Assembly (NCBI RefSeq): GCF_006385685.1
Contig: NZ_VFRP01000004.1
Location: 124,001-188,000 of the forward strand
Direction of reading: 5' to 3'
DNA from: Amaricoccus solimangrovi
GTDB taxonomy: Bacteria; Pseudomonadota; Alphaproteobacteria; Rhodobacterales; Rhodobacteraceae
DNA: 64,000 nucleotides
Positions 839 to 13,462 of this stretch are shown here, piece by piece. The first letter of the stretch is position 1; every line of letters begins with the position of its first letter. The translations under genes were made by a program, and so were the position numbers. Under the pieces are notes generated by a model. The model did not search any database and was not told the origin of the DNA. It worked only from the letters and a program-made list of their open reading frames with translations.

Positions 839-1546
839 TCAGGGCGCGGCGGGAGCGGGCCGGGCCGGATCGGGCGCGACATGAGGCCTGACGCGCTCGA
901 GCGGCCATCCTTGCGCGGCCCATCCGTCGGTGCCGGCGGGGTACCAGAAGATCCGGGCGTAACCCGTCTCCACCGCGCGTTTCGCGCCGTTCCAGGACAT
1001 CCAGCAGTCCTGCTTGCAGAAGAAGACCATGGGCGCGTCCATCCGCCCCCCCGAGAGTCCGGCGAGGGCGTCGAGGAAGTAGCGCTCCGTGGCGGGGTCG
1101 AGCGCGTCGTAGCCGGTGTTCGCGAGCCAGGTCGCGCCCGGGATCGTCTCGTGGGGCGGGTCGCGCCAGAGCGTGCCGGCCGGCAGGTTCGCGGGCCTGA
1201 CCGGAGTCGGAAGCAGGTCGACGAAGGGGATGCCGGCGCGCCAGAGCGCATGCGCCGCCGCGTCCCCGATCACCTCCGCGCCTTTCAGCGTCGCGGGAAC
1301 CGGCGAACGGTAGGGTTCGCCGTGATAGCTATCGGGCTCTGGAACCTCATCCGTCGCCGCCTCCGGCCGGGCGGCGGGCGGCTCCGCCTCCGCGCCGGCC
1401 GGGCGCGGGGGCGGCGGCGCGGCGGCGAGCCCCTCGCGCGCGGCGGGAGGCGGAACGCCCTCCTGCGCGGCGCGCGCGGCGGCGGGCGCGGCGAGGACGG
1501 CGAGGGCGCTCAGGCAGAGCGCGCCCGCCGTCCCCGCCCGGGTCAT
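839..1546 (-). CDS. PQQ-dependent catabolism-associated CXXCW-motif rhodanese-like protein
   Basis: Secreted 235-aa protein: signal peptide 1-27, a Pro/Ala-rich linker to about residue 68, then a rhodanese-like domain ending in the family signature CKQDCWMSW (C177, C181) followed by the conserved WYPAGTDGW. This matches the PQQ-associated CXXCW family found beside quinoprotein dehydrogenases. The ATG overlaps the xoxJ stop (ATGA at 1543-1546), so it is probably co-translated as the last gene of the xoxF-G-J transcript. The role is unproven; a periplasmic sulfur or redox function linked to quinoprotein maturation is suggested by family and context. An upstream extension in the same frame exists but lies inside xoxJ and has no ribosome site. 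Confidence 0.88.
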   Translation of the reverse strand: MTRAGTAGALCLSALAVLAAPAAARAAQEGVPPPAAREGLAAAPPPPRPAGAEAEPPAARPEAATDEVPEPDSYHGEPYRSPVPATLKGAEVIGDAAAHALWRAGIPFVDLLPTPVRPANLPAGTLWRDPPHETIPGATWLANTGYDALDPATERYFLDALAGLSGGRMDAPMVFFCKQDCWMSWNGAKRAVETGYARIFWYPAGTDGWAAQGWPLERVRPHVAPDPARPAPAAP

Positions 1547-2391
1547 TGCGTGACCTCCGGCTTCAGCGCCGTGCCCATGTCGTTGAGGAGCGGCACGCCC
1601 GCCTCGCGCAGGATCTCGTCGATCCGGGGCTGGACCTTGCGGAGCGTCGAGTTGAGCTCGCGCTTCCACACGTCCTCGCCGTTCCGCACGCCCATGGAGA
1701 CGCGGTAGAAGAGCCGGGGGGCGCCCTGGGGTTTCGGCTCCCCCACCAGCGGCGTGAGCTTCAGCGGCGCGCCCGACTGCTTGACGAGCGGCCCGGCGAC
1801 CGGCCCCCACATCACGGCGATGTCGAGTTCGCCGGCTTCGAGCGCCCTCAGCATGTCCTCGTTCGGGCTCTCCACCCTCCGGTCGACCTGGAGGTTGTAG
1901 CCCCGCACGGTCTTGAGGAGCCCGTAATGCGCGAGATAGCTCGCCGGCGGGGTGCCGGCGATCACGCCGATCCGGCGGCCCCGGAGCCGGGGATCGGCGA
2001 GGGTCGTCACGTCGGCGAGGTCGCTGTCCTCCCGCGCGACCAGCGCGTAGGCCGAGGTATAGTAGGCGTTGGTCGTCATCACCATGTCCTCGCCCTGGGC
2101 GTAGCCGATGATGACGTCGCAATTGTAACCGAGCAGCGTGCGGCGCACGAAGCCCATCGCCATCGGCGACCAGAAGTACTGGAGCGGCCGGTCGAGGGTT
2201 TCCGCCATCAGCTCCGCGATCCGGTTCTCGAAACCCGTCCCGTCCTTGTCGCTCTCTGGCGCGTTGGCGGGATCGGCGCAGACGCGGAAGGCGGTGCGCG
2301 ACACCAGATCCGTGGGCTGGGCCGCGAGCGGCCCGCCGATCAGCAGCAGCGCCGCCGCGAGGGCGGCGGCGGGGCTAGCCCATGCAGGCAT
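1543..2391 (-). CDS. xoxJ: XoxJ-type periplasmic substrate-binding-like protein
   Basis: 282-aa periplasmic protein of the quinoprotein dehydrogenase-associated ABC substrate-binding family (XoxJ/MoxJ). Signal peptide is residues 1-25; the mature N-terminus has the typical FRVCADPANAP, followed by a bilobed binding-protein fold. XoxJ is thought to help activate or mature XoxF rather than import a solute, and no ABC permease is nearby. The chosen ATG lies inside the 3' end of xoxG (17-base overlap), and a longer upstream frame would lack a signal peptide at its start. Third gene of xoxF-xoxG-xoxJ-rhodanese. Confidence 0.93.
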   Translation of the reverse strand: MPAWASPAAALAAALLLIGGPLAAQPTDLVSRTAFRVCADPANAPESDKDGTGFENRIAELMAETLDRPLQYFWSPMAMGFVRRTLLGYNCDVIIGYAQGEDMVMTTNAYYTSAYALVAREDSDLADVTTLADPRLRGRRIGVIAGTPPASYLAHYGLLKTVRGYNLQVDRRVESPNEDMLRALEAGELDIAVMWGPVAGPLVKQSGAPLKLTPLVGEPKPQGAPRLFYRVSMGVRNGEDVWKRELNSTLRKVQPRIDEILREAGVPLLNDMGTALKPEVTQ

Positions 2392-2908
2392 CTTCTTGCT
2401 CTTTGTAGGCGTCGGGCTTGTCGGCGCGCTTCGCCGGCCGGCCGCGCGGAATCGCATCCATGCCCATCGCCTTGAGATAGACGTAGATGTCGTCGAGGTA
2501 GCACATGACGTTCTTGTTGTCGCCGAAGGAGGGCATCACCAGGTTGCCCTGCTGCTTGCCGCCGGCGACGATGCCGAGCACGTCGTAATAGTCGAGCCGG
2601 AGCATGGATTTCGCCAGCGCCGGCGCGTAGGTCGAGCCCTGGCCGTCCGGACCGTGGCAGACGAAGCATTCCGAATTGTAGCGCCGGAAGCCGGAGAAGG
2701 TGTACCAGTCGACGGTGCCGTCCTCCTGGACCTTGAAGGTGGGGATATCCTCCTTCGTGAACCACTTCCCGTCGACCTCGTGATCGGCGGTGATGTTGCT
2801 CTCGATCTGCTCCGGCGTGAGCTTCACCTCCTGCGCCGAGGCCGCCTGGGCGAGCCCGAGCGCGGCGAGGGCGGAAAGTGCGATGGATGCCGATTTGGCA
2901 TGGATCAT
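2375..2908 (-). CDS. xoxG: XoxG cytochrome c, electron acceptor of XoxF
   Basis: 177-aa periplasmic c-type cytochrome (cL class) that takes electrons from the methanol dehydrogenase PQQ. Signal peptide residues 1-26 (LAQAASAQ). The single haem site is CFVCH at 81-85, and LVMPSFGDN supplies the likely axial Met (M125). The C-terminus includes two further Cys (C136, C175). Start ATG chosen for its GGAGG (2917-2921 on the plus strand as CCTCC). It lies 201 bases downstream of xoxF, behind two stem-loops, and overlaps xoxJ. Confidence 0.93.
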   Translation of the reverse strand: MIHAKSASIALSALAALGLAQAASAQEVKLTPEQIESNITADHEVDGKWFTKEDIPTFKVQEDGTVDWYTFSGFRRYNSECFVCHGPDGQGSTYAPALAKSMLRLDYYDVLGIVAGGKQQGNLVMPSFGDNKNVMCYLDDIYVYLKAMGMDAIPRGRPAKRADKPDAYKEQEDACMG

Positions 2909-2916
2909 CAAATGGT

Positions 2917-2959
2917 CCTCCAAGACCCTGCTTGTGTAGGTTGGGTTTCGACAGGGTCT
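2917..2959 (-). promoter_or_regulatory. Stem-loop abutting the xoxG ribosome-binding site
   Basis: A perfect 8-bp inverted repeat (AGACCCTG at 2923-2930 with CAGGGTCT at 2952-2959, 21-base loop) ends one base before the xoxG Shine-Dalgarno (2917-2921). It may protect the 3' piece of a processed xoxFG transcript or modulate xoxG translation relative to xoxF. Structure is seen; role is inferred. Confidence 0.45.
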
Positions 2960-3109: not shown

Positions 3110-4918
3110 TCAGCTGTCCGGCAGCGAGAAGACCGTCAGCTGGCCGCCGAGGGCGGTGTAGTCGCTGAGGGCCGAGTAGCCGCCCACGGCGCCGAGGCCT
3201 TCGTTGGGGTTCGTGAGACCGGCCGCGAGGCCGATGCCGGCCCAGCCGCCGACGCCCGAGAGGACCGCGACGTACTGCTTGCCGCCGTGCTCGTAGGTCA
3301 TCACGTTGCCGATGATGCCCGAGGGGGTCTTGAACTTGTAGAGTTCCTTGCCCGTCTCGGCGTCCACCGCCTTCAGATAGCCTTCGAGCGTGCCGTAGAA
3401 CACGACGTCGCCCGCGGTCGCCAGCGCGCCCGACCAGACCGAGAACTGCTCGGGGATCGACCACTTGATCTCGCCCTTCGTCGCGTCCCAGGCGATGAAG
3501 TTGCCCATGCCGCCATGGCTGTTCGGCGCGGGATACATCGAGAGGGTGGCGCCGACATAGGGCTGGCCGGCGGTGTAGCTCACGCGGAACGGCTCGTAAT
3601 CCATGCAGACGTGGTTGGTCGGCACGTAGAAGAGCGAGGTCTTCGGCGAGAAGGAGGCGGGCTGCTGGTCCTTGGTGCCGAGCGCGGCCGGGCAGATGCC
3701 GGTCGTGTTCTCGTCCTCGCCATTGGCCTCGGTCGAGAATTCCTTCACCACGGCCGGGCGGCCGAAGGTCTCGGAATCGCGGTTCATGTCGACGCCGGTG
3801 GTCCAGTTCACCGCCGGGTCGTACTTCTCCGCCACCAGCAGGTCGCCGTTCTCGCGGTTCAGCGTGTAGGCGATGCCGTTACGGTCGAAGTGGACGAGAG
3901 CCTTGGTGTCCTTGCCGTCGATGTTGAGGTCGGCGAGGATCATCTCGTTGACGCCGTCGTAGTCCCATTCGTCATGGGGCGTCATCTGGTAGACCCATTT
4001 CGCCACGCCGGTATCGGCGTCGCGGGCGAAGATGGTCATCGACCACTTGTTGTCACCCGGGCGCTGCGACGGGTTCCAGGTCGAGGGGTTGCCCGAGCCG
4101 TAGTAGATCAGGTTCAGGTCGGGATCGTAGGAATACCAGCCCCAGGTGGCGCCGCCGCCGATCTTCCACTGGTCGCCTTCCCAGCTCGAGATCGAGCTGT
4201 CCTTGCCGACCGGCTTGCCGAGCGCGGTGGTCTTCTCCGGGTCGAACAGCAGCTGATCGTCGGTGCCGACCGAATAGGCCCGCCAAGCCATCGAGCCGTC
4301 CTTGATGTTGTAGGCGGTCACGTGGCCCTGCACGCCGAATTCGCCGCCCGAGATCGAGACGAGCAGCTTGTCCTTGAAGGGCATCGTGGTCGCGGTCGCG
4401 GTCTCGCCCTTGGCGGGATCGCCGTTCTTCACGCTCCACTTCACCTCGCCGGTCTTGGCGTCGAGCGCCACGACGGTCGTGTCGGCCTGGCTGAGGAAGA
4501 CCATCCCGTCGGCGTAGGAGAGGCCGCGGTTCACGGTGTCGCAGCACATCACGCCGATGACGTTCGGATCCTGCTGCGGTTCGTACTTCCAGAGGATCTT
4601 GCCGTCGTTGTTGAGGTCGAGCGCGTAGACCGTGTTCGGGAACGGCGCGTGGACGTACATCACGTCGCCGATCACCAGCGGCGAGCCCTCATGGCCGCGC
4701 AGCACGCCGGTGGAGAAGGTCCAGGCCGGGCGCAGGTCCTTGACGTTGTCCTTGGTGATCTGATCGAGCGTCGAATAGCGATGGTTCGCGTAGTCGCCGG
4801 TCTGGATCGCCCAGTTCTTCGCGTCGCCGATCGCCTCCTGGGTGCTTTCGTTGGCGAACGCGCCGAGACTGCCCGAGAGCATCAGGGCGGCCGCGGCCGG
4901 CAGTGCGTATCTGATCAT
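3110..4918 (-). CDS. xoxF: Lanthanide-dependent PQQ methanol dehydrogenase XoxF
   Basis: Periplasmic quinoprotein alcohol dehydrogenase (602 aa, usual length for the family) oxidising methanol, with electrons going to XoxG. It has a signal peptide (1-22) and the eight-bladed propeller with repeated W-motifs. The active-site vicinal disulfide is C125-C126 (VMCCDTV). Expected metal and catalytic residues are E193, N277, D319 and D321 in HDEWDYDG. The extra Asp two residues after the catalytic Asp is the hallmark of lanthanide-using XoxF; calcium-type MxaF has Ala there. GGGAGG just before the ATG at 4918 favours this start over one 27 bases upstream. First gene of the xoxFGJ-rhodanese unit; no MxaI-like small subunit is seen. 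Confidence 0.97.
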
Positions 4919-4981
4919 ATAACCCTCCCACTGGGTTGTTTTCATCGGCCTTGGGAGGAGGGTACGCCAGTCACTCCGCCA

Positions 4982-5401: not shown

Positions 5402-6532
<1,131 letters not shown>

Positions 6533-6693: not shown

Positions 6694-6909
6694 TCAGACG
6701 TCGATCTCGCGCCGGCTCGACTCCTCGCATTTCCAGGACACGATCGTGAAGGCGGGATGTTCGCGCGCCCAGGTCGCGAGTTCGGGCTGGGCGCGCATGA
6801 AGCAGGAGGTCCCGGAGGCGGCCTCTCCCTCCCAAACGTAGCTCAGGATCTTCTGCTCGCAGGTCCGGGGTTCGGCCTTGAGGCAGGCGACGAAGACGAG
6901 TTCGATCAT
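6694..6909 (-). CDS. Small four-cysteine protein, MIEL family, copy A
   Basis: 71-aa protein of unknown function that is not random: it shares a full-length pattern with the protein at 7687-7920 and with the first 48 residues of the metallohydrolase at 8127-9146. The common pattern is MIEL, C9, C17, a third Cys (C36), then W-x4-P-x6-W-x-C (W47, P52, W59, C61). No signal peptide is evident, so it may be cytoplasmic. GGGAG lies five bases before the ATG at 6909. It is divergent from the secreted protein at 7047 and upstream of frmA. Four conserved Cys suggest metal binding or disulfides. Confidence 0.72.
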
Positions 6910-7046
6910 GCTGTGCTCCCATGGCCGCGCCCGCGCGGGCACGGCCCCGGCGCGGACTCGGTCGCCAAAAGGTCAGTCTTGACCAGAGCGGCGCCATGAA
7001 CAAGTCAGGAGAAGCTGCGACGAACCGCGCGCCAAGGAGGAAACCC

Positions 7047-7673
7047 ATGCCAGCGAAATCCGGCCGAGCCTCGCTCGCGGCCCTGACGGCCCTCGCCCTC
7101 GGCCTCCCGCTCGCGGCCGGGCCCGCCCGCGCGGCGGACCAGAGCGACCCGGACTGGCCCTGCGTCCAGCGCAAGGTGCCCTCGCTCTCGATGGGGCAGA
7201 TGTGGGCGGGTCCGCCGGCGGAGGGCGACTGGCAAGAGGATCCCGAGATCGCCCGGCTCGCCGGGGTGATGGCGGCGCGGCGGACCACGCTCGACGAGGT
7301 GAAGGCGCTCGCCGGGGACTACGCCGCGAAGCTCGACCCGGACGCGCGGCCGGGCCGGATGGCGCTGCTCTTCCAGGGGGTGCTCGACCGGATCAATTCC
7401 GAGCGGGCCGACGTGATGAGCGGCATCAGCCGCTACGCGCATCACCAGATCGAGCTCTCCGACGGCGTGAAGGCGGAGGAGGCCGCGCTCGCCGCGCTCA
7501 AGGCCGATCCGAAGGCGGATCCCGACAAGGTCGAGGAGGCGCAGGACAAGCTGAACTGGAACATCCGCGTCTACCGCGAGCGCGCGCAGTCGCTCACCTA
7601 TGTCTGCGAGACCCCTGTCCTGCTCGAACAGCGCGCCTTCGCGATCGCGCGGATCCTGGCCGAGATCGCGTAG
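7047..7673 (+). CDS. Secreted helical protein of unknown function in the methylotrophy cluster
   Basis: 208-aa predicted periplasmic protein. The start is fixed by a strong AAGGAGG (7034-7040), and a clear signal peptide runs to about residue 29 ([10 protein letters not shown]). The mature N-terminus has [16 protein letters not shown]39 can pair with the only other Cys, C187 (TYVCETP). The rest is almost all helix and likely coiled-coil (about 105-208), rich in Glu, Lys and Ala. It sits alone on the plus strand between the two small Cys proteins, both encoded on the opposite strand. I do not recognise a characterised family; the location argues for a part in XoxF-linked periplasmic oxidation. 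Confidence 0.75.
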
Positions 7674-7686
7674 GGCCGCCCGCGTC

Positions 7687-7920
7687 TCAGAGCGGCGGCT
7701 GGGCCAGCGGATCGTTGCGCTCCGCCACGCTCTCCCGCATCTCGCGGCAGCGCCACTTGGCGATGCTGCGCTCGGGATGGGAGTTGACCCAGGAGGCCAG
7801 CTCCGGCTGCGCCTGATACATGCAGAGCGCGGCGCTGGCCGCCGGCATGAATTTCACGACCTTTTCCTGGCAATCGGCGGGGTCCGTTCGCAGGCAGGCA
7901 AGAAAAACGAGCTCAATCAT
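7687..7920 (-). CDS. Small four-cysteine protein, MIEL family, copy B
   Basis: 77-aa paralogue of the 6694-6909 protein. Both start MIELVF and share AQPELA, with Cys at 9, 17, 33 and 58 here and the W44-x4-P49-x6-W56-x-C58 tail. A hydrophilic C-terminal extension of about 19 residues (ERNDPLAQPPL end) is unique to this copy. AAGGGA precedes the ATG. It is downstream of the metallohydrolase on the same strand after a 206-base gap with its own promoter-like elements, and it meets the 7047-7673 gene tail to tail. Function unknown. Confidence 0.72.
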   Translation of the reverse strand: MIELVFLACLRTDPADCQEKVVKFMPAASAALCMYQAQPELASWVNSHPERSIAKWRCREMRESVAERNDPLAQPPL

Positions 7921-8038
7921 TGTCTATCCCTTGACGTTATTGAGAGTTGCCCGCCGAAGCGGCCAATTCCGGGTCAACGGGCTCCCTCCCAGGGAGAATC
8001 TTGAATGATCTTTTAGGTTGTTCACGCCTTGAGCGATT

Positions 8039-8096
8039 ATGCCAAGACTTCTACGACTAATGTCCTATTGTATCCCGAATCACCCCGGGCCACCAA
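8039..8096 (-). promoter_or_regulatory. Candidate promoter and TTGGCAT half-site before small Cys protein B
   Basis: The 7921-8126 gap is visibly lower in GC. On the minus strand TTGGTG (8091-8096), 18 bases and TACAAT (8067-8072) make a plausible promoter. ATGCCAA at 8039-8045 is the same 7-mer as the xoxF inverted repeat. Low confidence because both elements are short. Confidence 0.35.
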
Positions 8097-8126
8097 GCGC
8101 ATTCTTTGCTGCGCTGCAAAAAAGAA

Positions 8127-9146
8127 TTATTCCCACTCCAGCTCGCGATAGACCGCCGTCGCGTTGCGCGCGTTGAAGTCGTCGAACAGCAGCCAGTCGC
8201 CGCGCAGATCCGCGCCGAGGTGGCGGCTCGCCTCCCCGAGGCTCTCGCCTCGGGCGAGCGCGGCGCGGGTCTCGGCGACCAGCGCGGTGAAATAGGCCCG
8301 CGTCGTCTCGGCGCCCGCGGGCCAGGGCAGGCTCGCCGCGCCATGGCCCGGTACGATCCGTGCGGCGGGCTTCGCGCCCAGTTCGTCGAGCAGCCGCAGC
8401 CAGCCGAGGACGGAGCCGTCCATCGAGGGCGTCTGCCGGTCGAAGACCAGATCGCCGGTGAACCAGGTGTCGGTCGCGAGATCGCGCGCGGTCAGGTCGT
8501 TGTCGGTATGCGCCGTCGGCCAGGCTTCGAGCCGCAGCGCCCGCCCGCCGAGGTCGAGGTCCCGGCTCTCCTCCACCGTCTCGTCCGGCAGAACCGTCCC
8601 GGCGCCGAGCCCCACGAGCGGGCCCATCGCGCGCGCCGCCGCCGCGGCGTAGCTGTCGGAGCGGTTCAGGAGCGCGTCGGGCAGCCGGGCGTGGCCGATG
8701 ATCCGCGCGCCGGCCTCGTGGAAGAATTCGGCGCCGAGCGTGTGATCGGGATGCATGTGCGTCAGGACCAGCCATTTCACCGGCAGATCGGTCCGCGCCC
8801 GGATCGCGGCGTAGAGCCCCTCCGCCACCTGGCGCGACCCGCCCGCGTCGATCACCGCCACGCCCGCGGCGCCGATCACGAAGCCGAGATTGGCCTCGTC
8901 GCCCGCGTTCTCGGGATCCGCGAGCTCCTGCCGCCCGGGATGGACGAAGACACCCGGCGCGACCTCGGTCACGTCGAGCGCCGGACGCGCCGCCGGATCG
9001 GCGCAGGACCAGCCCCGGAGCACCAGTTCCGGCCGGGCGGCCACCCAGTCGCGCGCCGCCGCCTCGACGCAGGGCACGGGCAGGAGATGGGCGGCGCAGC
9101 GGTCCGGCTGGCCGGCGAGGCAGAGATCCATCAGAAGCTCGATCAC
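8127..9146 (-). CDS. Quinoprotein relay system zinc metallohydrolase (type 2) with N-terminal MIEL Cys domain
   Basis: 339-aa metallo-beta-lactamase-fold hydrolase of the SoxH-related, PQQ-associated family. Metal ligands are HMHPDH (H130, H132, D134, H135), H213 (AHTDND), D232 (TGDLVFD) and H268 (PGHG). Residues 1-48 are a separate four-Cys module (C9, C17, C26, C48) homologous to the two small proteins at 6694-6909 and 7687-7920. The start is GTG at 9146, chosen because GGGGAGG lies five bases upstream and because MIEL is the family N-terminus. It diverges from the SoxYZ-like carrier gene over 86 bases, its usual partner. The substrate is unknown; hydrolysis of a thiol-bound intermediate is plausible. 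Confidence 0.88.
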   Translation of the reverse strand: MIELLMDLCLAGQPDRCAAHLLPVPCVEAAARDWVAARPELVLRGWSCADPAARPALDVTEVAPGVFVHPGRQELADPENAGDEANLGFVIGAAGVAVIDAGGSRQVAEGLYAAIRARTDLPVKWLVLTHMHPDHTLGAEFFHEAGARIIGHARLPDALLNRSDSYAAAAARAMGPLVGLGAGTVLPDETVEESRDLDLGGRALRLEAWPTAHTDNDLTARDLATDTWFTGDLVFDRQTPSMDGSVLGWLRLLDELGAKPAARIVPGHGAASLPWPAGAETTRAYFTALVAETRAALARGESLGEASRHLGADLRGDWLLFDDFNARNATAVYRELEWE

Positions 9147-9232: not shown

Positions 9233-10069
9233 ATGACAGATTTCAGCCTTTCGCGCCTCTTCGCACCCGTCGCCGCGGTCCTCGTGCTGGCCGTCGCGCC
9301 GGTCCACGCCGAGACGGCGGATCAGGGGCGCGACACCACGATGCGGCCAAGCGAGGCCTGGGACGAGATGCGCGGCGATGTCCTCGGCCCGGGCGAGATC
9401 CGCGACGGCGCCGGTCTCTTCACGCTCGACGCGCCGTTCCGGGCGGAGGACGCGGCGACCGTGCCGGTCCATATCGTCCAGAAGCCGGGCACGCCGCGGA
9501 TCGCGAAGCTCACGCTCGTCGTGGACGAGAATCCCTCGCCGGTCGTCGCCACCTTCACCTTCGGGCCGGCGATGGATCCGCTCGACCTCGAGACGCGGAT
9601 CCGGGTCAACGCCTATTCCAACGTGCGCGCGATCGCGGAGACCGAGGACGGGGCGCTGCTGATGACGGGGCGCTACGTGCGCGCCGCCGGCGGCTGCTCC
9701 GCGCCCGCCTCCAAGGACGCCACCGCCGCGCTGGCCGCGCTCGGCCAGATGAAGACGCGCTGGTATTCGGAGGAACCCGCCGCCGTCGGGACCCGGCGCG
9801 AGGCGCAGGTGATGCTGCGCCATCCGAACTATTCCGGTCTGCAGCGCAACCAGGTCACCCATCTCTTCGTGCCGGCGCGCTTCATCGACACGCTGGAGGT
9901 GAGCCAGGGCCCCGATCTCTTGTTCCGGATGGAGGGCGGGATCTCGATCAGCGAGGATCCGACCTTCCGCTTCCGCTATGTCGACGGCGGCGGCGACGAG
10001 TCGCTCAGCGTCCGCGCGCATGACACCGACGGGCAGGCGTTCGAGGGCAGCTTCCCGCTCGGCAGCTGA
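9233..10069 (+). CDS. Quinoprotein dehydrogenase-associated SoxYZ-like carrier protein
   Basis: 278-aa secreted protein fusing a SoxY-like and a SoxZ-like domain. Signal peptide 1-26 (VAPVHAETAD). The SoxY-like part (about 35-165) ends in RAAGGCSAP with C155 as the likely carrier cysteine; here the GGC motif is internal instead of at the C-terminus. The SoxZ-like part (about 185-278) has LRHPNYSGLQRNQ and a beta-sandwich pattern. In Sox systems such a carrier binds sulfur intermediates; beside PQQ dehydrogenases its cargo is not known. Divergent from the relay metallohydrolase, which supports a joint role. Ends 10 bases from the convergent gene at 10080. Confidence 0.88.
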   Translation: MTDFSLSRLFAPVAAVLVLAVAPVHAETADQGRDTTMRPSEAWDEMRGDVLGPGEIRDGAGLFTLDAPFRAEDAATVPVHIVQKPGTPRIAKLTLVVDENPSPVVATFTFGPAMDPLDLETRIRVNAYSNVRAIAETEDGALLMTGRYVRAAGGCSAPASKDATAALAALGQMKTRWYSEEPAAVGTRREAQVMLRHPNYSGLQRNQVTHLFVPARFIDTLEVSQGPDLLFRMEGGISISEDPTFRFRYVDGGGDESLSVRAHDTDGQAFEGSFPLGS

Positions 10070-10079
10070 GCCGCGCCGC

Positions 10080-10463
10080 TCAGAAGCAGCGCACATCGCC
10101 CTCGGCCTGCGCCCGCTTCAGGTCGCGGACGAAATCGTTCGCGACCGGCGCCGTGCGCATCATCCCCACGCGCTCGCCCGCGACCTGGCGCATCGCCAGC
10201 ACCGTCTCGGCGTCGACGTATTTCTCGTAAGGGATGATCGAGGCGATCACGTCGATCGAGCAGGAGCAGCGCCGCAGCGCCTCCCGCGTCTGCCCGTTGG
10301 TCGCCATGCAGACGAAGACGTAATCGGCCCGCGCCTCGGTCGGGTAGTCGTTGACGAGCGCCGCGCCGCTGTCCGCCTCCGGAAGCGGCGCCCCGACCTG
10401 CTGGGCGAGGGCCGGGGCGGCGGCGAAGGCCACGGCCGCGAGGATCACCGCGGAGCCGCGCAT
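10080..10463 (-). CDS. Secreted small cysteine-rich protein of unknown function
   Basis: 127-aa predicted periplasmic protein: signal peptide 1-20 (AAPALAQQ), then Cys at 52, 66, 68 (RRCSCSID) and 126 near the C-terminus (DVRCF). Four Cys in about 107 mature residues suggest two disulfides or a metal site. The ATG follows the stop of the 244-aa upstream gene by one base, with GAGGAGGGG inside the end of that gene, so the two are translationally coupled. I do not recognise the family; the cluster context suggests a periplasmic accessory of methanol oxidation. Confidence 0.75.
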   Translation of the reverse strand: MRGSAVILAAVAFAAAPALAQQVGAPLPEADSGAALVNDYPTEARADYVFVCMATNGQTREALRRCSCSIDVIASIIPYEKYVDAETVLAMRQVAGERVGMMRTAPVANDFVRDLKRAQAEGDVRCF

Positions 10464-10464
10464 C

Positions 10465-11199
10465 TCACCCCTCCTCGATCTTCGAGAGCGTCAGGCTGAG
10501 GTCCATGAGCGGCGGCGCCTCCGGCTTCGCCGCCCCCCCGGCCCTCGCCGCGTCGGGCGCCGCGGCGTCCGGGCCGGTCACCGCCTCCATCCGGGCGAAT
10601 TCGCCCGGGATCTCGTCGCTCATCGTGAAGCGGATCGTGAGATCGACGAAGGCCGGCCCCATCTTGTCGGCGTTCCTGTCGCTCAGGAAGGGCTGGAAGG
10701 TCAGCACCCGCGCCGGCACCTCGCGCCCTTCGTAGGCGACCGTCGTCTCCTCCACCGCGTCCTGCGCGCCGAGCGCCTCGCGCATCCGGTTGCGGATGTA
10801 GAAGGAACTGCCGCCGGTCAGTTTCGACATCGTGGCGACGGCCTCCTCCATGAAGACCATGAACATCGGATTGCCCGCGTCCGCCGGGAACGGATCGAAA
10901 TTCGCGATCAGCTTGTCGCCGTCGCGCACCAGCGCCACGGCGGCGCGCTTGCCGGCCTCCTCGCCCGGCTCGACCGTGAGCCGCGCCTCGCCATGGGCGA
11001 TCTTGTCGAGCTTGTCGCCGGAATAGGCGCCCTCGCGCGAGAAGTCGTAGACGAGCGTCTCGCCGGTCCTCACCTCGTCGAGCGCGCCGAGCGCGAAGAG
11101 GCGGTCCTGCGCCTCGCCGGCGAGCGCCCCCCGCGCCAGAAGCGCCAGCGCGAGCGCGGCGACACCGAGCCGCGCCCCCCGTCCCGTTGGACCTGTCAT
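10465..11199 (-). CDS. Secreted protein of unknown function, first gene of a two-gene unit
   Basis: 244-aa predicted periplasmic protein with signal peptide 1-27 (ALLARGALAGEA). The body (30-205) alternates beta-like segments typical of a lipid- or ligand-binding sandwich (TGETLVYDFSREG, AVALVRDGDKLIANFD). It ends with an Ala/Pro-rich linker and LMDLSLTLSKIEEG. No Cys in the mature part and no catalytic signature that I can name. GGGAGGA precedes the ATG. Divergent from the response regulator gene and coupled to the 127-aa Cys protein, so control by that regulator is plausible. Confidence 0.75.
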   Translation of the reverse strand: MTGPTGRGARLGVAALALALLARGALAGEAQDRLFALGALDEVRTGETLVYDFSREGAYSGDKLDKIAHGEARLTVEPGEEAGKRAAVALVRDGDKLIANFDPFPADAGNPMFMVFMEEAVATMSKLTGGSSFYIRNRMREALGAQDAVEETTVAYEGREVPARVLTFQPFLSDRNADKMGPAFVDLTIRFTMSDEIPGEFARMEAVTGPDAAAPDAARAGGAAKPEAPPLMDLSLTLSKIEEG

Positions 11200-12280: not shown

Positions 12281-13462
12281 ATGGGAGAGCTGCTCGGCCT
12301 CGCTGAGGATAGATCGAACGAGGCGAGCGGGCGCGTTCGCCGCGCGCAGTCGCTCCGCGGCGACGATTTCGCCGCCGTGGCGGAGGTCCGGCGCGCGCTC
12401 GGCCCCGGCCCCTTCGCCCTCGTCATCCTCCTCGTCTCGTCGAACCGCTCGACCGACGCGATCTCGGCCGCCGTGATGCGCGAATTCCCCGGCCAGGTGG
12501 TGATCGGGGCGACCACGGCGGGGGAGATCGGCGTCACCGGCTATCTCGACGGGGCGATCGTCGCCGTGGCGCTGCCGGCGGCGAATTTCCGCGCGCAGAC
12601 GCTGATGATCCCCGATCTCGAGCAGTTCCCGCGGCATGTCTCGATCCAGGAGGTGCTGCGCCTGCGCAACGGCCTCGCGGGCAGCGTGCCGACCTGGCCG
12701 AACGAATTCGCCTTCCTGCTCTCCGACGGGCTCTCGCTCCGGGAGGAGCAGTTCGTCTCCGCCCTCGGCCCCGCGCTCGGCGGCGCGCCGCTCTTCGGCG
12801 GCTCGGCGGCGGACGGGGTGAATTTCGAGCGCACCTTCGTGCTCGCCGACGGCGCCTTCCGTTCCAACACCGCGGTGCTCGCCTTCATCCGCACCAACTG
12901 CCGGGTCAAGGTCTTCCGCTTCGACCATCTGCTGCCGACCGAGCAGCGCATGGTCGTGACCGCCGCCGATCCGGCGCGCCGGCTGGTGATGGAGATCAAC
13001 GCCGAACCCGCGGCGCGCGCCTATGCCCGCGCGCTCGGCCGCGATCCGGACCAGCTCTCGCCCTTCATCTTCGCCGCGCATCCGGTGGTGGTCCGCATCG
13101 GCGGCACGCATCATGTCTGCGCGATCCAGCAGGTGGAGCCGAACGGCGACCTGAAGCTCTTCTCCGCCGTCGACCAGGGCCAGGTGCTGACGCTGGCCGA
13201 GGGCCAGGAGATCGCCGCCCATCTCGAACGCTCGCTCGACGCGCTCTCCCCCGACGGCCCGCCCGAGGCGATCATCGCCTGCGAATGCATCCTCCGCCGC
13301 CTCGAGATCGAGGAGACGCAGGTGAAGGGCGTGATGTCGCGGACGCTCGCGCGCCACAACGTGGTCGGCTTCAACACCTATGGCGAGCAGCTCAACATGC
13401 TGCACGTGAACCAGACCTTCACGGGCGTCGCGATCTACCCGCCCCTCGGGGAAGACAGATGA
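12281..13462 (+). CDS. FIST-domain sensory protein partnered with the hybrid kinase
   Basis: 393-aa soluble protein with FIST N domain (about 40-225: VVIGATTAGEIG, LSDGLSLREEQ, GGAPLFGGSAADG) and FIST C domain (about 230-375: ARAYARALG, RHNVVGFNTYGEQ). FIST proteins sense small ligands. The closest well-known arrangement is Pseudomonas NosP, a haem FIST protein for nitric oxide, encoded beside the hybrid kinase NahK. Here the stop overlaps the kinase start by ATGA (13459-13462), so the pair is probably made in fixed ratio. Ligand here is unknown. The start ATG has only a weak ribosome site. Confidence 0.9.
   Translation: MGELLGLAEDRSNEASGRVRRAQSLRGDDFAAVAEVRRALGPGPFALVILLVSSNRSTDAISAAVMREFPGQVVIGATTAGEIGVTGYLDGAIVAVALPAANFRAQTLMIPDLEQFPRHVSIQEVLRLRNGLAGSVPTWPNEFAFLLSDGLSLREEQFVSALGPALGGAPLFGGSAADGVNFERTFVLADGAFRSNTAVLAFIRTNCRVKVFRFDHLLPTEQRMVVTAADPARRLVMEINAEPAARAYARALGRDPDQLSPFIFAAHPVVVRIGGTHHVCAIQQVEPNGDLKLFSAVDQGQVLTLAEGQEIAAHLERSLDALSPDGPPEAIIACECILRRLEIEETQVKGVMSRTLARHNVVGFNTYGEQLNMLHVNQTFTGVAIYPPLGEDR

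Follow-up and report, generated by a model that had tools for sequence, protein, structure and literature searches.

A four-cysteine module, free and fused to the metallohydrolase SoxH2, in the XoxF methanol-oxidation system of Alphaproteobacteria

In a 64,000-nucleotide stretch of the Amaricoccus solimangrovi genome (NCBI RefSeq assembly GCF_006385685.1, contig NZ_VFRP01000004.1, positions 124,001 to 188,000 of the forward strand; hereafter the window), a methanol-oxidation cluster of XoxF type contains three copies of a small module with four cysteines: two are stand-alone proteins, and the third forms the N-terminus of SoxH2, the zinc metallohydrolase 2 of the quinoprotein relay system. As judged by its co-occurrence and gene neighbourhood in other genomes, this module is part of the alphaproteobacterial XoxF system for methanol oxidation. 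XoxF, a lanthanide-dependent methanol dehydrogenase, is widespread, and it is unsettled what the SoxYZ-like and SoxH-like accessory genes of its system do; the small protein described here, which follows the system almost one to one in both orders sampled, is a candidate for a missing part. The modules and the enzyme to which one of them is fused are arranged as follows (ORF, open reading frame):

6694..6909, minus strand: free four-cysteine module 1, 71 residues, C9/C17/C36/C61, ATG start (ORF, sequence and alignments)
7687..7920, minus strand: free four-cysteine module 2, 77 residues, ATG start (ORF and alignments)
8976..9146, minus strand: fused four-cysteine module, SoxH2 residues 1-57 (alignments; the TIGR04559 match begins at residue 57)
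8127..8978, minus strand: catalytic part of SoxH2, residues 57-339 (TIGR04559, 362.9 bits, cut-off 280; Pfam Lactamase_B)

A purine-rich stretch precedes each of the three starts by a few bases (GGGAG, AAGGGA and GGGGAGG). The SoxH2 ORF (8127-9146, minus strand) opens with GTG and encodes 339 residues; in free module 1 an earlier in-frame GTG would extend the protein by 11 residues. MIEL, C9, C17 and the ending W-x4-P-x6-W-x-C are identical across the three window modules (product of the residue frequencies of the nine shared letters approximately 3e-15 per aligned start, a rough value to be read as an order of magnitude only), and once more members were added the third cysteine aligned as well, making this a four-cysteine module. 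The homology of the free and fused forms, claimed in the initial annotation for the 71- and 77-residue proteins and the SoxH2 N-terminus, was borne out: all three ORFs are present, all four cysteines align, and hhalign aligned 63 columns of the free profile (57 sequences) with the fused one (32 sequences, that of the window excluded) at a probability of 97.3% and E = 2e-11. The ending that the same annotation regarded as common to the module is identical in the three window copies, but only M1 and the four cysteines are invariant in the fused set and the W-x4-P-x6-W part is absent from most other fused copies; the Trp/Pro signature is therefore mainly a free-form trait. Similarly, the count of three holds for the window but not for the genome, where contig C72 carries another copy and contig C49 a short form. 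The C49 copy (locus L269; approximately 49 codons, four cysteines, without the middle Trp) either represents a minimal form or is in decay.

Free modules 1 and 2 matched no Pfam or NCBIfam family above the curated cut-off. A profile of 57 module members gave only scattered weak matches to these collections (best E 0.0098 for Pfam and 0.03 for NCBIfam) and, up to E = 10, retrieved no PDB sequence; searches of open-access full texts returned no description of such a small four-cysteine protein. As had been supposed from the sequence, the module is thus a real, previously unnamed and apparently undescribed small-protein family.

Six proteins of the surrounding cluster, SoxH2 included, each score above their NCBIfam cut-off (PQQ, pyrroloquinoline quinone; GSH, glutathione):

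839..1498, minus strand (piece used, start not settled): PQQ-associated CXXCW (rhodanese-like) protein (TIGR03865, 204.9 bits, cut-off 128.05)
1543..2457, minus strand (ORF bounds): MoxJ-like periplasmic substrate-binding protein (TIGR03871, 287.3 bits, cut-off 212.15)
2375..2917, minus strand (start not settled): methanol metabolism-related c-type cytochrome (TIGR03874, 225.4 bits, cut-off 161.75)
3110..4945, minus strand: XoxF-type PQQ methanol dehydrogenase (TIGR03075, 761.4 bits, cut-off 480)
5402..6532, minus strand: GSH-dependent formaldehyde dehydrogenase (match to the Paroceanicella gene bearing this annotation, locus L008; 80% identity to the gene of locus L033)
7048..7673, plus strand: secreted-looking protein between the two free modules (no Pfam or NCBIfam family above cut-off)
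9233..10069, plus strand: SoxYZ-like carrier, divergent from SoxH2; Sec-type signal peptide, GGC motif in the form GGCSAP (TIGR04557, 271.8 bits, cut-off 140)

The dehydrogenase at 3110..4945 is presumably XoxF, as we take it from its neighbours and from family knowledge. The gene of free module 1 is located 162 bp upstream of the formaldehyde dehydrogenase gene, that of free module 2 210 bp downstream of the SoxH2 gene on the same strand. The metal motif H-x-H-x-D-H of SoxH2 (HMHPDH in the window) is present in all eight of the eight aligned members.

The occurrence of the module was analysed in the window's order (order 1, 244 genomes) and in the order of genome G070 (order 2, 140 genomes), at most 25 and 43 candidates per genome, respectively, being scored; as these were only part of the first-look candidates, absences of the module are soft. 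The TIGR03874 cytochrome served as system marker in order 1, and XoxF was searched in order 2 only (E ≤ 1e-150, which lets in homologues down to 48% identity). A free module was found in 29 of the 244 order-1 genomes (16 genera; G243, G412 and G421, matched via a fused copy only, are excluded), and all 29 possess SoxH2, the TIGR03874 cytochrome and the SoxYZ-like TIGR04557 protein, the respective totals over cut-off being 34, 36 and 40 of the 244 (Fisher p = 8e-33 for free module versus SoxH2, kinship ignored). Among the 140 order-2 genomes, 38 have XoxF, 38 have SoxH2 and 37 have both; the free module is present in 30 (23 genera), accompanied by a XoxF homologue in 30/30 and by SoxH2 in 29/30 (p = 1.5e-23, kinship ignored). 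These XoxF homologues show at least 62% identity in 27 genomes and 53-54% in three (G511, G553 and G588, where this is the only homologue and the module match is weak); the genome without a SoxH2 match is G617, which has module and XoxF. Within the limited recall of the search, the free module was thus found only where genes of the system are present, and the expected tie to methanol oxidation and to the SoxYZ-like and metallohydrolase families proved near-perfect in both orders. The system was also found without a free module, in 7 of the 36 cytochrome genomes of order 1 and 8 of the 38 XoxF genomes of order 2. Of 240 genomes covered by a class-wide search with a narrower profile, five had the module (two with weak matches of approximately 24 bits), 13 had SoxH2 over cut-off and three had both; tblastn against a plasmid collection returned 167 records, those listed comprising ten genera, all of them Alphaproteobacteria.

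It might be argued that this co-occurrence is mere co-inheritance on a methylotrophy island and that the module is without a role in methanol metabolism. Many copies are indeed situated inside the island. We nevertheless consider this explanation highly improbable: in order 1 the free copy is separated from SoxH2 by 0.4-17 kb in 14 of the 29 genomes, by 66-639 kb in three and lies on another contig in 12, and the co-occurrence rule holds also for the three distant (≥66 kb) and the 12 other-contig genomes, so that copies hundreds of kilobases away or on other contigs were still found only in genomes with the system. Moreover, the sequence is strictly conserved and the number of copies per genome ranges from one to six. 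In one genus (g207), free modules occur as tandem pairs approximately 110-190 bp apart (G350, G405, G291, G437 and G479); these pairs are located on contigs other than that of SoxH2 or more than 600 kb from it.

The genomic neighbourhood gave a concordant picture. A scan of the genome collection yielded 101 module relatives, of which 80 loci were kept; in 57 of these 80 a core quinoprotein, PQQ or formaldehyde marker is present within 10 kb of the module (pqqE in 41, SoxH2 in 7), a figure based on 13 marker queries of which the beta-propeller one was out of frame and which includes SoxYZ matches of approximately 31% identity that may be true SoxYZ. Homologues near quinoprotein genes, whose absence elsewhere was to speak against the initial annotation, thus do exist in other genomes. 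Direct adjacency was evaluated for 136 module ORFs (from 129 loci plus the initial 20 kb of the window) in all orientations: a tested marker is found within 500 bp of 77. At the same distance, 56 of the 136 have a sensor kinase of one and the same family, which is divergent from the module in 51 cases (49-100% identity to the query kinase) and has the module directly upstream in five; this neighbouring kinase is annotated as HAMP-containing and stands beside a response regulator, with pqq genes often next. Furthermore, the module directly precedes an ABC (ATP-binding cassette) transporter gene in 14 cases, formaldehyde dehydrogenase in three and XoxF in two (overlapping sets; converging genes not considered), the ATPase and one permease of the transporter matching the PQQ-alcohol families TIGR03864 and TIGR03861. 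SoxH2 is found within 500 bp of a single module ORF, namely copy 2 of the window, and within 2 kb of five. Adjacency therefore points to the sensor kinase, not SoxH2, as the partner of the free module. At 21 marker-free module loci the clustered neighbours revealed mainly genus-level synteny and no methanol theme.

Several further genes recur in these surroundings. The homologue of the 7048-7673 protein stands, divergently, beside free modules in loci L008, L033, L052 and L110. Two secreted-looking proteins of the window, 10080-10463 (no Pfam or NCBIfam match) and 10465-11199 (no Pfam match), both on the minus strand, have homologues near SoxYZ-like/SoxH2 genes and near the sensor kinase. The plus-strand gene 12281-13462 encodes a FIST-domain protein that scored 370.7 bits against the model of the nitric-oxide sensor NosP, below its cut-off of 450; response-regulator-like and kinase-like ORFs adjoin it.

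The SoxH2 N-termini were read in 30 of the 34 order-1 and 30 of the 38 order-2 genomes with this enzyme, signal peptides being judged by eye. In order 1, all 29 loci read and the window begin with the module and have no signal peptide, and free and fused modules coexist. In order 2, a signal peptide resembling those of Sec or Tat substrates stands at the N-terminus in 27 of the 29 newly read loci and in G070 (28 of 30), the module in two (G504 and G592); neither of the latter genomes has a free copy, and 23 of the 28 genomes with signal-peptide SoxH2 have a free module. A tree of 69 SoxH2 catalytic domains placed the 35 module rows and the 34 signal-peptide rows on opposite sides of one branch (support 90/99), with one change in 90% of the bootstrap trees: module and signal peptide were exchanged in a single switch, which bears on where SoxH2 works. 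The SoxYZ-like partner carries the GGC motif in every row listed and, by eye, a signal peptide whenever its N-terminus could be read, in module and signal-peptide loci alike (that of L160 could not). In order-1 genomes such as G312, G367 and G252, a second, weaker SoxYZ-like match, likewise above cut-off, lies at most approximately 2 kb from the methanol cytochrome gene; possibly, there are two SoxYZ-like carriers per system in such genomes.

No signal peptide was recognized by eye in the free modules when these were read from the conserved start: their N-terminus is hydrophobic for approximately 8-10 residues, but a basic n-region is missing and position 3 is mostly acidic (E or D in 146 of 182). 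The free module would therefore most likely be a cytoplasmic protein. In consequence, the signal-peptide SoxH2 of order 2 and the free module would occupy different compartments.

This bears directly on the proposal of the initial annotation that the free forms act with SoxH2, as partners that compete with or replace its N-terminal module as carrier or docking subunit. The homology of the two forms, the presence of SoxH2 in 29/29 and 29/30 of the free-module genomes and the split or fused pattern of order 2, where most signal-peptide enzymes are accompanied by a free module and the two fused ones are not, are all in line with it. However, XoxF predicts the module equally well or better (30/30, including G617), and since XoxF and SoxH2 have almost identical distributions, co-occurrence does not distinguish SoxH2 as the partner; only 1 of the 136 module ORFs, that of the window itself, adjoins SoxH2 (5 within 2 kb) as compared with 56 that adjoin the kinase, order 1 has both forms side by side, and the compartments differ in order 2. 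The idea of a specific service to SoxH2 is thus not upheld, that of a joint action with it is weakened, and we regard this reading as unlikely.

According to a profile search of the collected loci, all four cysteines are kept in 181 of 183 distinct modules, free and fused; one exception is cut by a contig end, the other is an intact ORF in genome G584 (L249, G584:C1:5453-5826) that has kept C1 and C2 and lost both C3 and C4, another full copy being present in this genome. The paired loss is a hint that the cysteines are organised as two pairs. The AlphaFold2 model of free module 1 (57-row alignment; mean predicted local distance difference test score, pLDDT, 81.6) comprises strands 2-10 and 17-24, helix 33-50 and strand 54-63; from this topology, C9/C17 and C36/C61 (numbering of window copy 1) would come to lie at opposite fold ends, in agreement with the single paired loss. 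Foldseek revealed no match of this model at E ≤ 0.001, and the best VIA-align match was PurS (2yx5; Z 6.0, 58 aligned residues, root-mean-square deviation 2.9), yet with 12% identity and a Z below 8, which may reflect a common arrangement only. In the model of the fused protein (8-sequence alignment, too shallow), the metallohydrolase part is good, and the module is helical and mostly below pLDDT 50.

The spacing C-x7-C-x~15-C-x~24-C was compared with known cysteine motifs. Two CxxC knuckles of a zinc ribbon were not found, the C-x7-C pair being followed by cysteines that stand singly; the alignments contain no conserved CxxC as in thioredoxin-like redox proteins; and for C9 as a lipobox cysteine the preceding stretch appeared too short by eye, L, I or V preceding the cysteine in many fused forms. 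If the module bound or delivered zinc (or copper) in the cytoplasm through a single four-cysteine site and had been joined to SoxH2 for metal loading, this would explain the near-invariance of the four residues and suit a zinc enzyme that retains its metal motif. Such a role is very unlikely in our view: apart from the spacing, which is unlike that of zinc ribbons, one intact copy has dispensed with C3 and C4 while keeping C1 and C2, the cysteines would be at opposite ends of the modelled fold given a helix oriented as is usual in strand-helix-strand units, and the signal-peptide SoxH2 enzymes manage without the module.

Alternatively, the module could be an unconventional export or envelope-targeting domain, the free proteins being periplasmic with two structural disulfides. 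A SoxH2 carries either the module or a signal peptide, with one switch between the two in the tree, the SoxYZ-like partner looks exported in both kinds of loci where its N-terminus could be read, the N-terminus is hydrophobic, and the paired cysteine loss would also fit disulfides; in addition, an upstream in-frame start would add basic residues in some copies, window copy 1 included, and a crude hydropathy script, which missed three likely signal peptides (L030, L176 and L179), returned signal-like results for four module-type SoxH2 proteins when upstream starts were used. Against this stand the missing basic n-region and the acidic position 3, the loss of C9 that cleavage of the stretch would entail, the modelled strand formed by residues 2-10 and the 85 of 205 module ORFs that have no earlier in-frame start. 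We know of no precedent for a module of this type that replaces a signal peptide, and hold the explanation to be distinctly unlikely. Little credence is given to a more far-reaching version, in which a new N-terminal targeting or carrier domain would lead SoxH2 and the free modules to the SoxYZ-like carrier independently of Sec and Tat signals, its paired thiols carrying sulfur or one-carbon groups in the service of the XoxF relay.

The reading that we tentatively prefer, though at somewhat less than even chances, is that the module serves the methanol regulon in the cytoplasm as a thiol-based companion or sensor and was captured once by SoxH2. The two cysteine pairs (C9/C17 and C33/C58 in common numbering) would react with formaldehyde, sulfane sulfur or a redox change, or bind a metal, and the module would pass this chemical state to neighbouring cytoplasmic parts. 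The most frequent recipient would be the sensor kinase/response regulator beside the pqq genes; elsewhere, the operons headed by the module (ABC transporter, formaldehyde dehydrogenase, XoxF) might take this place. In one branch of SoxH2, the module stands where the other branch has a signal peptide, which would leave the hydrolase in the cytoplasm with the same set of cysteines in cis. Whereas homology, cysteine conservation, co-occurrence, gene neighbourhoods and the single switch were observed, the cytoplasmic location, the thiol or metal chemistry and the coupling to kinase or headed operons are inferred.

Several points weigh against this thiol-based companion or sensor. For 59 of the 136 module ORFs no tested marker is present within 500 bp. 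In the window's order, inherited synteny may account for the proximity of kinase and module, and the five order-2 kinases downstream of the module (L284, L286, L289, L296 and L298) show only 35-39% identity to the query and may therefore not form one orthologous group with the others. As 120 of the 205 module ORFs have a further upstream in-frame start, the start is not proven for each module. The single paired loss could concern a decaying copy, and the thiol or metal function is deduced from the conservation of the cysteines alone. Finally, a module-bearing SoxH2, which looks cytoplasmic, fits badly with a SoxYZ-like partner that looks exported: either the hydrolase works inside in the module branch, or the module substitutes for the export signal. 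Taken together, the link of the module family to XoxF methanol oxidation is solid, the claim of a SoxH2 partner is weakened and the function proposed is a guess.

The window contains the same kinds of genes as the accessory set of XoxF or PQQ alcohol dehydrogenases (SoxYZ-like, SoxH-like and rhodanese-like proteins; PP_2666, PP_2677 and PP_2678 of Pseudomonas putida). According to a 2026 review, these accessory proteins may take part in disulfide formation, in stabilising the cofactor or in protecting PQQ against sulfur nucleophiles (PMC12997753); in the accessible part of that text no small four-cysteine protein is mentioned with the set, unlike in the window. A four-cysteine companion would fit the thiol/sulfur chemistry proposed for these proteins. 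Around xoxF5 of Rhodobacter sphaeroides and of roseobacter strain La 6, a figure legend names adhI, soxH, xoxF5, xoxG, xoxJ and gfa (PMC5934484), this legend listing no small cysteine protein as found in the window cluster. The module resembles EtgC of Paracoccus denitrificans, which is described in the accessible part of its source as a small protein with four conserved cysteines from an alcohol-oxidation cluster (12.8 kDa, related to IscA/SufA/ErpA; PMC12214560), in that both are small four-cysteine proteins of such clusters; it differs in its size of approximately 67-77 residues and in that its 57 aligned members show no relation to the IscA/SufA/ErpA family. The fused protein of the window, with its H-x-H-x-D-H motif, is a member of TIGR04559 (SoxH_rel_PQQ_2), and the tree of this family is divided accordingly: the window protein and its side carry the module without a signal peptide, the other side a signal peptide without the module.

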